Source: an uncultured bacterium
GTDB taxonomy: Bacteria > Patescibacteriota > Minisyncoccia > Phycocordibacterales > UBA9973
Direction: 5' to 3'
Assembly: GCA_903904195.1 (NCBI GenBank)
Contig: CAIVBM010000026.1
Coordinates: 1 to 34,142, forward strand
Length of the DNA: 34,142 nucleotides
Shown: piece after piece, positions 3,216-32,281 of the stretch
How positions within the stretch are numbered: the first letter of the stretch is position 1
Layout: each line of letters begins with the position of its first letter
The notes under the pieces: model-generated
The model's database searches: none
What the model saw: only the letters and a program-made list of their open reading frames with translations
Told to the model about the DNA's origin: nothing
Position numbers and translations under genes: made by a program

Positions 3216-4469
3216 ATGCCCAAATCAAACAAAGGGTCCCAAAAAAGAGTAGATAATATATATATGGATTATGCTGCCAGTGCAGAGGCGAATCCGAGTT
3301 CAATACATTCTATGGGAGTAAGTGCAAAAATGAAGCTACAAAATGCGCATAAAGATGTCGCTAAAGTTTTAAGTGCTCACTCTGATGAAATAATATTTAC
3401 GAGTGGGGGAACAGAGAGCAATAATCTTGCTATACAGGGTGTTTTGCTTGCGGTAAAGGAGCAAATGCCACATATCATAACTACAAACATAGAGCATCCA
3501 TCAGTGCTTGAGACTTTTAGACTTATGGAAAAAAGAAAGCTCGCAGAGATTTCTATCGTGCCAGTTGAATCAAACGGAATAGTAGACCCAAAAAAAATAA
3601 AAAAAGAAATAAAGAAAAATACTATACTCGTCTCTGTAATGTATGCGAATAATGAAATAGGTACGATACAGCCAATCAGAGAAATAGCAAAAGAAATCAG
3701 ACACTGGAAGAACCTCACCCGCTTTCAGCACCCTCTCCTTAATAAGGAGAGGGCTAGGGAGAGGTGTATTTTTCCTCTTTTTCATACTGATGCAGTGCAA
3801 GCAGTAAATTATTTGGATTTAAATGTAGAAAAGCTTGGTGTTGATTTGCTTTCATTGTCTGGATCAAAGATAGAAGGATCGGGGAGGGTGGGAGTTCTTT
3901 ATAAAAAGAAAAACGTTCAATTGGTAAATATATTTGGCGGGGGAAATCAAGAATTGGGACTGCGTCCAGGGACAGAAAATCTGCCGGAGATTTTAAAATT
4001 CTCAAAAGCTTTAGAGTTTACGCAGGAAATAAAAGAAAAGGAAAAAAAACGTTTAACAAAATTGCGAGATTACTTTACAGCAAAACTTCTTCGAATTTTT
4101 TATCCCCGAGGGTCCCACTCCGAAGGAGAAGGGCGCAGGGGGAAAAAATTTGAAGAAGTGAAGCTTTTATTTAATGGTGATTTAGAAAACAGATTGCCCA
4201 ATAATATAAATATAACGATTCCAAATATTCCGAGTGATCTTTTAGTTATAGAATTATCAGCTAATGGAGTAATGGTTTCTGAAAAGAGCGCTTGTGAGTC
4301 TGGCGATGGAAAAACTTCGTATGTTATAAAAGCAATTCGTCCAGACACAAAAGAAACAGATGGCTCTTTGAGGTTTTCTTTGGGTAGGGAAACAACAAAA
4401 AAAGAAATTATTTACACTATTAAAACTTTGTCTATTATTTTGAATAAACTAAAAAAGTGGTATAATTAA
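3216..4469 (+). CDS. Cysteine desulfurase (NifS/IscS-like) carrying two in-frame palindromic inserts
   Basis: A PLP enzyme that moves sulfur from cysteine to a protein persulfide. Visible motifs: FTSGGTESNN (61-70), the His of NIEHPSVLE (H94), HTDAVQA (190-196), the PLP lysine in SGSKIEGSG (K218), GGGNQELGLRPGT, and the catalytic cysteine in SEKSACESG (C360). After YMDYAAS it jumps to ANPSSIHS, so about 17 residues usually found in between are missing. Two stretches (about 166-186 and 294-313) have no counterpart in the family and coincide with palindromic DNA. No IscU-like scaffold gene is nearby; mnmA lies 17 kb away, so tRNA thiolation is a plausible use. The start ATG follows a -10 box by 6 nt; an alternative ATG lies 16 codons later. 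Confidence 0.88.
   Translation: MPKSNKGSQKRVDNIYMDYAASAEANPSSIHSMGVSAKMKLQNAHKDVAKVLSAHSDEIIFTSGGTESNNLAIQGVLLAVKEQMPHIITTNIEHPSVLETFRLMEKRKLAEISIVPVESNGIVDPKKIKKEIKKNTILVSVMYANNEIGTIQPIREIAKEIRHWKNLTRFQHPLLNKERARERCIFPLFHTDAVQAVNYLDLNVEKLGVDLLSLSGSKIEGSGRVGVLYKKKNVQLVNIFGGGNQELGLRPGTENLPEILKFSKALEFTQEIKEKEKKRLTKLRDYFTAKLLRIFYPRGSHSEGEGRRGKKFEEVKLLFNGDLENRLPNNINITIPNIPSDLLVIELSANGVMVSEKSACESGDGKTSYVIKAIRPDTKETDGSLRFSLGRETTKKEIIYTIKTLSIILNKLKKWYN
3711..3769 (+). repeat. Palindromic insert A, in frame in the cysteine desulfurase gene
   Basis: The core is CCCTCTCCTTA at 3731-3741, a central A, and its exact complement TAAGGAGAGGG at 3743-3753. Outer arms CCTCACCC (3713-3720) and GGGAGAGG (3757-3764) pair with one mismatch. 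The segment codes for about 20 residues (KNLTRFQHPLLNKERARERC) between two conserved blocks, EIxxEIR and LFHTDAVQA, where homologues have only a few. It has no stop codon in this frame, so the enzyme reads through. It is more G/C-rich than its host gene. Confidence 0.75.
4086..4158 (+). repeat. Palindromic insert B, in frame in the cysteine desulfurase gene
   Basis: The left arm 4086-4107 (CTTCTTCG, AA, six T, AT bulge, CCCC) pairs with the right arm 4139-4158 (GGGG, six A, TTT, GAAGAAG) over 20 bp, including one G-T wobble and a 2-nt bulge. The inside, 4108-4138, is G/C-rich and contains CTCCGAAGGAG. It codes for about 20 residues (FYPRGSHSEGEGRRGKKFEE) placed before VKLLFNGDLENRLPNN, the equivalent of the conserved VxLNGxxxxRxPxxxN block. 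Reading frame is preserved. Confidence 0.7.
4440..4466 (+). promoter_or_regulatory. Extended -10 promoter for the pseudo-protease/clpB pair, predicted leaderless
   Basis: TGGTATAAT ends at 4466 and the ATG of the next gene is at 4473, so a transcript starting 7 nt after the -10 would begin at the start codon itself. A weak TTGAAT lies at 4440-4445. The promoter lies in the last codons of the cysteine desulfurase gene. Confidence 0.6.
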
Positions 4470-21733: not shown

Positions 21734-22891
21734 ATGAAGAAAAAAGTAGTGTTTGTCGGGCTTTCAGGAGGGGTAGACTCTGCTGTCAGTGCGGCTTTAT
21801 TAAAAGAACAGGGCTATGAGGTTGTCGGAGTTTTTATTAAAACTTGGCATCCAGATTTTTTAGCTTGCAATGAAGGGGAGGAAAGGTTGGACGCTATGAG
21901 AGTCTCTGCGTATTTAGATATTCCATTTTTAACTTTTGATTTTAAGGATATTTATAAAAAAGAAGTTGCAGATTATATGATTAGTGAATATAAAGTTGGT
22001 AGAACTCCAAATCCTGATGTGATGTGTAATAAGGAAGTAAAATTTGGTGCGTTTTTGAAAAAGGCTATTTCAATGGGGGCAGATTATGTCGCAACGGGGC
22101 ATTATGCTATTTCAAATAGTGGGCTTGTCTTTTTTGGGTCGCTGTCTCCGCGTGTTCGCGGAGCGCTGCCTCTCGGCCCGTCGGCCTGCGAGACACCCAA
22201 AAAAGACAAGCCCACTATTTTTTTATTAAAAGGTGTTGATCCTTCAAAAGATCAAAGTTATTTTCTTTGGACACTAAAACAAGAGCAATTGAATAAAATT
22301 TTATTCCCAGTCGGTCATTTAAAGAAGACAGAAGTTAGAAAGCTAGCAGATAAATTTGGTCTTCCAGTAGCAGAGAAAAAGGACAGTCAGGGTATATGTT
22401 TTTTGGGTGATATAGATTTAAAAGAGTTCTTGAAACATTACATTAAATCTAAAAAAGGGAAAGTGTTAAATGAAAAAGGAGAAGAAATCGGATATCATAA
22501 TGGCGCAGTTTTTAATACTTTAGGAGAACGTCATGGTTTTACTGTCACTAAAAAAGGTCCGACAGATGGGCCATATTATATTGTTGGTAAAGATATTAAG
22601 AAAAATATTTTGTTTGTAAAACAGGGGACTCACAGCTCCCTAAATTCTTCAAATTCTATTCTTGCCCTTAAAGATGTGAATTGGATTTTTAAAACTCCAG
22701 AATTAAACAAAAAATACACAGCACAAATTCGTTATCATGGAGAATTTTTATCATGTACAATAAAAGCTGAAGGCCTTGAGCAAAAGCGAAGGGCGGAAAT
22801 AATATTTGATAAGCCGGTTTTAGTCGCTTCTGGTCAGTCTTGTGTTATATATGATAAAGATGTTTGTCTTGGTGGTGGAGTTGTAATTTAA
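21734..22891 (+). CDS. mnmA: tRNA-specific 2-thiouridylase MnmA with an in-frame palindromic insert
   Basis: 385 residues. PP-loop GLSGGVDSAVSA (9-20), NPDVMCNKEVKFG with C98, TGHYA (121-125), GVDPSKDQSYFLWTL, KKDSQGICFLGD with C222. The two cysteines carry out sulfur transfer and activation of U34 in Lys, Glu and Gln tRNAs, using sulfur from a cysteine desulfurase such as the one at 3216. Between TGHYAIS and LLKGVDPSKDQ, where homologues have about 8-10 residues, lies a stretch of about 36 (127-162) encoded by a large palindrome. The catalytic core is otherwise complete. Confidence 0.95.
   Translation: MKKKVVFVGLSGGVDSAVSAALLKEQGYEVVGVFIKTWHPDFLACNEGEERLDAMRVSAYLDIPFLTFDFKDIYKKEVADYMISEYKVGRTPNPDVMCNKEVKFGAFLKKAISMGADYVATGHYAISNSGLVFFGSLSPRVRGALPLGPSACETPKKDKPTIFLLKGVDPSKDQSYFLWTLKQEQLNKILFPVGHLKKTEVRKLADKFGLPVAEKKDSQGICFLGDIDLKEFLKHYIKSKKGKVLNEKGEEIGYHNGAVFNTLGERHGFTVTKKGPTDGPYYIVGKDIKKNILFVKQGTHSSLNSSNSILALKDVNWIFKTPELNKKYTAQIRYHGEFLSCTIKAEGLEQKRRAEIIFDKPVLVASGQSCVIYDKDVCLGGGVVI
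22114..22220 (+). repeat. Palindromic insert C inside mnmA: perfect 26-bp arms closing two inner hairpins
   Basis: The left arm 22114-22139 (begins AAATAGTGGGCTTGTC, ends TTTGGGT) is the exact reverse complement of the right arm 22195-22220. Inside are CTCCGCG-TGTT-CGCGGAG (22146-22163) and a second stem with TCTC/GAGA and GGCC/GGCC around CGTC (22171-22194). The whole folds as a three-way junction. It is rich in G/C compared with mnmA and is read through in frame as about 36 residues (SGLVFFGSLSPRVRGAL...). Confidence 0.85.
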
Positions 22892-32205: not shown

Positions 32206-32281
32206 ACCCCCTATAATCCCCCTTGTCAGGGGGATTTGGTTTTTCTCCCCTGCTAAGGGGAGATGCAAGAGGGGTCTTTTT
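32206..32281 (+). repeat. Palindromic element D between rpsI and grpE, likely acting as terminator
   Basis: Outer ACCCC (32206-32210) and GGGGT (32271-32275) enclose two hairpins: AATCCCCCT-TGTC-AGGGGGATT (32215-32236) and TCTCCCCT-GCTA-AGGGGAGA (32244-32263). The layout, arms plus two inner hairpins, is that of insert C. TCTTTTTA follows the right arm, so it can end transcription of the ribosomal operon. The sequence is G/C-rich in an AT-rich context and similar in style to insert A (CTCCTTA/TAAGGAG core). Confidence 0.65.

Follow-up and report, generated by a model that had tools for sequence, protein, structure and literature searches.

A nested palindrome of a dispersed repeat family lies in frame within a cysteine desulfurase gene of an uncultured Patescibacteriota bacterium

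How does a conserved cysteine desulfurase gene come to carry a nested palindrome within its open reading frame, and does the encoded peptide have to be of any use to the protein? The question is raised by a nifS-like gene of an uncultured bacterium of the Patescibacteriota, located in contig CAIVBM010000026.1, where the whole stretch analysed, of 34,142 nucleotides, is referred to here as the window. The host ORF matches cysteine desulfurases in NCBIfam (TIGR03402, E 4.6e-97), in Pfam (PF00266, E 2e-51) and among PDB structures (E 1.7e-64). The features of the window are collected in Table 1.

Table 1. Features of the window, with positions counted from its first nucleotide.
Feature	Position	Strand	Basis or remark
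Host gene, NifS/IscS-type cysteine desulfurase, 417 aa, intact	3216..4469	+	NCBIfam, Pfam and PDB matches; single open frame
Insert A, nested palindrome, 54 bp, encodes (N)LTRFQHPLLNKERARER(C)	3712..3765	+	Inverted repeats, folding, open frame
Insert A, outer left arm CCTCACCC	3713..3720	+	Arm kept among family copies
Insert A, inner left arm CCCTCTCCTTA	3731..3741	+	Inverted repeat, family pattern search
Insert A, inner right arm TAAGGAGAGGG	3743..3753	+	Inverted repeat, family pattern search
Insert A, outer right arm GGGAGAGG	3757..3764	+	Arm order compared with consensus in PMC4666352
Insert B, in frame, same nifS	4085..4159	+	Second dispersed palindrome family, unrelated to insert A; about 7 copies in genome
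Third in-frame palindrome, in mnmA (tRNA 2-thiouridine synthase)	22114-22220		26-bp perfect arms, 55 nt apart
Hairpin array downstream of rpsI	32207-32271		Separate repeat family CTCCCCT...AGGGGAG; 3 copies in genome

Insert A runs from A3712 to T3765 with the layout ACCTCACCC-GCTTTCAGCA-CCCTCTCCTTA-A-TAAGGAGAGGG-CTA-GGGAGAGGT. Its inner stem is perfect over 11 of 11 base pairs, with a single A between the arms, and seven of the eight positions of the outer arms pair, just as a first-pass annotation of the sequence had described. RNA folding of the insert gave a z of -4.41, none of 200 shuffles being equally stable, and its core, searched as CTCCTTA-N0-20-TAAGGAG, has one match in the window, the nifS copy itself, and none in 100 shuffles. 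Its length is a multiple of three, corresponding to 18 codons, and the reading frame used stays open across it. In the protein, the insert falls between the helix IREIAKEIRH and the strand FPLFHTDAVQ, in a loop whose surface position is taken from its alignment with known structures, since a single-sequence model reached a pLDDT of 31 and was left unused. The annotation had counted about 20 additional residues here, which is nearly right with respect to the nearest solved structures, where the loop is 19 residues shorter, but too high with respect to the shortest homologues, whose 11-12 residues against the 26 found here leave an excess of 14-15.

The genome-wide search for further copies proposed in that annotation was carried out over 679 kb in 54 contigs. 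The pattern CCTCTCCN{0,20}GGAGAGG gave 19 forward matches, reducing to about 17 distinct copies, against a single match for the reversed pattern; the shuffles and the reversed-pattern controls rule out a chance origin of insert A. Ten of the 17 copies are intergenic and seven lie in frame within ORFs, as assigned by an ORF-length rule and not from curated genes, which agrees with the dispersed family, settling both in genes and between them, that the annotation had suspected. Of the seven ORFs that carry a copy, six are conserved genes, namely nifS, lepA, tsaD, dnaX, comF and purL, with the lepA/EF4 host matching TIGR01393 at E 5e-218. Copies in ORFs use all three frames, encoding peptides of the PLLNKER, PLSLIRRG and PSPYKGEG types, and this use is limited solely by the frames that the core leaves open. 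The outer arms are conserved among the copies and the ends read ACCTC...GAGGT; neither a target-site duplication, as in classical MITEs, nor a clear target motif was seen by eye in the copies displayed. A coding density near 90% is usual in such genomes and, if it applies here, the copies would be depleted in genes, a result that purifying selection would give.

The core of insert A had also been compared with the element downstream of rpsI, a resemblance that turned out to be superficial. The rpsI-downstream hairpin (CCCCCTATAATCCCCCTTGTCAGGGGGAT...CTCCCCTGCTAAGGGGAG...AGAGGGGT) is built on a different core with copies of its own, and the search for the insert-A core in the window returns the nifS copy alone, so that kinship between the two elements is ruled out.

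Homologous genes provide the empty counterparts of these filled sites. Among 30 NifS sequences, comprising that of this genome and those of relatives from the genus and the order, 12 have at this position a loop of 11-14 residues whose DNA is without structure, these empty sites being read from homologues of which the nearest is about 70% identical to the host NifS. Empty sites are thus present in nifS-like genes of sister genomes, where the annotation had advised looking for them, and distant homologues likewise do without the loop. In 13 of the 30 sequences the same loop carries strong palindromes (z from -4.4 to -13.5) belonging to eight families, one relative (G034, L039) having the insert-A family at the same site. 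The others have the look of incomplete or degraded inserts; in the NifS of L033, for instance, an outer-arm-like sequence is kept and the inner hairpin is gone. At least 12 changes are needed to place the strong inserts on the NifS tree. Because relatives either lack an insert there or carry quite different ones, this loop seems to be a site where small mobile palindromes land again and again. In LepA, a short loop (e.g., IPEPKETYKGDDSLRAL) occupies, in most of 29 relatives, the position of IPAPTSPLTPLLTGEGGQRSGEVLRAL in this genome, and seven relatives have a palindrome insertion at a second site. The tsaD gene of this genome (L069:1924-3201) seems to hold, besides its copy of the insert-A family, three more odd in-frame loops: KPASTRTSLGG, LIPLLRGGFCNQ and TPSPSLKRRGG.

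The closest known relative of insert A is the intrastrand triplex motif (TM, or TMECO in Escherichia coli), known from E. coli, Enterobacter and cyanobacteria (PMC4666352, PMC2869309), with a CCCTCTCCC-GGGAGAGGG palindromic repeat reported in Enterobacter sp. 638 (PMC2869309). Both share the arm order CCCTCNCC / GGNGAGGG / N3 / GGGNGAGG and the presence of many copies per genome, about 17 in 679 kb in our case. Written in TM order, positions 3731-3764 of insert A read CCCTCTCC-TTAATAA-GGAGAGGG-CTA-GGGAGAGG, which agrees with the TM consensus CCCTCNCCC-N3-6-GGGNGAGGG-N3-GGGNGAGGG in the 8-nt arms and the N3 spacer. However, T/A stands in place of the C/G on the loop side, the loop is longer (TTANTAA) and there is an extra left arm, CCTC(A/T)CCC, making insert A a close variant rather than an exact match. 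Both are abundant in cyanobacteria and lack a known associated transposon. The E. coli copies described by Holder et al. (2015, PMC4666352) sit exclusively between genes, and no mobile element was found to go with them, whereas about a third of the copies of the insert-A family are in frame in ORFs. Triplex formation by TM is a wet-lab property, assessed by CD and NMR, whereas insert A is likened to TM by its sequence.

Two other groups of repeats are comparable in their behavior. Rickettsia palindromic elements (RPE) also occur in frame in proteins, with an unknown mechanism of movement (PMC2229807, PMC10969869), and resemble the insert-A family in entering unrelated conserved protein genes and leaving the host gene intact. 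However, RPEs are given as 105-150 bp or 105-146 bp long and each has a conserved encoded peptide, as opposed to 54 bp and three frames here, and their sequences are unrelated. GTAG/CGTC REPs, in turn, are short palindromes some of which lie within ORFs, some families having no dedicated transposase (Di Nocera et al. 2013, PMC3733652); the insert-A family is likewise partly intragenic but has neither a GTAG nor a CGTC tag and forms a nested double stem. A literature search, thin on subscription papers, found no report of such repeats in CPR/Patescibacteria. Both a widespread REP-like palindrome and in-frame palindromes are therefore already known, and the interest of the present case is the frequency and the repeated targeting of conserved proteins.

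With all this, insert A is very probably an in-frame copy of a short mobile REP-like palindromic repeat that landed in the nifS loop. It would be an element of the triplex-motif kind, CCTC(A/T)CCC...CCCTCTCC...GGAGAGGG...GGG(A/T)GAGG, inserted in frame into the loop between the helix and the strand that runs into HTDAVQ. Movement would take place in the form of a folded, single-stranded hairpin, on which an HUH/Y1 transposase (RAYT, IS200-like) would probably act in trans. Copies breaking the frame or entering a protein core would be purged, and those remaining would be translated, nearly neutral loops of 18 codons, for which no host function need be assumed. Y1 enzymes could plausibly mobilize the element in trans: Y1_Tnp genes are present in all 21 genus genomes with at least 12 matches and in 23 of the remaining 39 (P 4e-4). 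One RAYT gene of this genome (L064) appears to have its own flanking palindrome twice in frame inside the ORF (GTPTTK), indicating that palindromes of that type enter coding sequence here. Across the genus, copy number correlates weakly with Y1 count (Spearman 0.36), and one genus genome without Y1 has 11 matches.

A narrower version of this explanation, in which one resident RAYT/Y1 transposase would mobilize the element specifically, as in a REP/REPtron system, is possible but doubtful. Y1 genes are present in all copy-rich genomes and every Y1 gene checked has flanking palindromes, as seen at the five Y1/RAYT-like genes of this genome (L061-L065), four of which have the same palindrome on both sides. 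However, REPtrons have their Y1/RAYT gene flanked by the very palindrome in question, and at these five loci the flanking palindromes are all other sequences, the insert-A family being found beside none of them; nor does the family have the GTAG tag.

Insert A could instead have arisen in place, through fold-back template switching, or through slippage, at a quasi-palindrome of a rapidly evolving loop, without any insertion. Other palindromes in the NifS loop that reach into host-like flanks (L035, L043, L046 and L053) point in this direction, as does the insert-B family, whose copies (4085-4159; L283-L288, L292-L296) share a conserved tip (CCGAGGGTCCCA...AGGGCGCAGG) and are bounded, in every case within this genome, by a copy-specific inverted repeat with 21-27 of 28 positions complementary, compared with a random mean of 11 and maximum of 19. 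An origin in place is nevertheless improbable for insert A, whose sequence is found again, almost unchanged, at about 17 unrelated sites of the genome and in other phyla, and whose family has no inverted extension of its flanks, with the exception of one copy (L081). As for insert B itself, comparison by eye shows paired, compensating changes between the orthologous copies that L292 and L293 carry within a gene, and a sister genome (G025, L296:1327-1364) has a copy at the same second nifS site in the opposite orientation.

The insert could also have been selected, either as a useful NifS loop for partner binding or as an mRNA hairpin regulating expression, and both the repeated targeting of this loop and the very stable RNA hairpin computed for the element would suit such a role. 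However, the NifS inserts come from at least eight unrelated families, 12 of the 30 homologues have none, and the same element is found in unrelated genes in all three frames, a picture that fits tolerated rather than selected insertions and makes selection very unlikely. Programmed bypassing, by which the ribosome would skip the mRNA hairpin and never make the loop peptide, is extremely unlikely: even though a strong hairpin separates two coding parts, the frame is open and in phase across the whole insert, so that no bypass is needed, and no matching take-off and landing codons were noticed.

The insert-A family extends to the relatives of this genome. Named contigs whose genes reach 83% identity to those of sister genomes carry the label Candidatus Nomurabacteria, which suggests a Patescibacteria (CPR) lineage. 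Two sister genomes have 9 of 23 and 5 of 22 copies in ORFs, e.g., in atpG, trmD, rsmA and pnp, so that, with this genome included, 21 of 62 copies in three genus genomes lie in ORFs. A wider pattern gives a mean of 10 matches in 60 genus genomes versus 0.4 in 40 other families of the order (P 1e-8), the latter figure being background, similar to the control. The surprising aspect is the frequency and the number of palindrome families entering conserved Patescibacteria proteins, together with the repeated targeting of one loop. More tentatively, such insertion would be a genus-wide and continuing process that involves many unrelated families and uses preferred loops as landing sites, with at least one family, that of insert B, entering by fold-back template copying that leaves copy-specific inverted flanks, a route distinct from the known transposition reactions.

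A repeat that is widespread, and that in E. coli is described from intergenic sites, is thus tolerated in frame in conserved proteins of ultra-small bacteria, where the 30 NifS and 30 LepA genes, with their filled and empty alleles, form a natural set for studying how protein sequence is gained from short mobile DNA. A further consequence is the warning that odd short loops such as PLLNKER, PLSLIRRG and PSPYKGEG in Patescibacteria proteins are repeat-derived.

Outside the genus, the exact 23-mer core occurs, among the matches listed, in cyanobacteria, mostly Nostocales, and in several other groups of Patescibacteria. Among these same matches, and by the same ORF-length rule, 6 of 100 cyanobacterial copies lie in ORFs versus 5 of 17 in other Patescibacteria (Fisher P 0.01), and the share in the three genus genomes likewise exceeds the cyanobacterial one (P 6e-6). 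Some of the cyanobacterial in-ORF copies (L096, L167 and L182) are in very large ORFs and share similar surroundings, ...IPNPF...SPLLTKERG...KLYKTGD..., which gives the appearance of a single recurrent loop in peptide-synthetase-like proteins.
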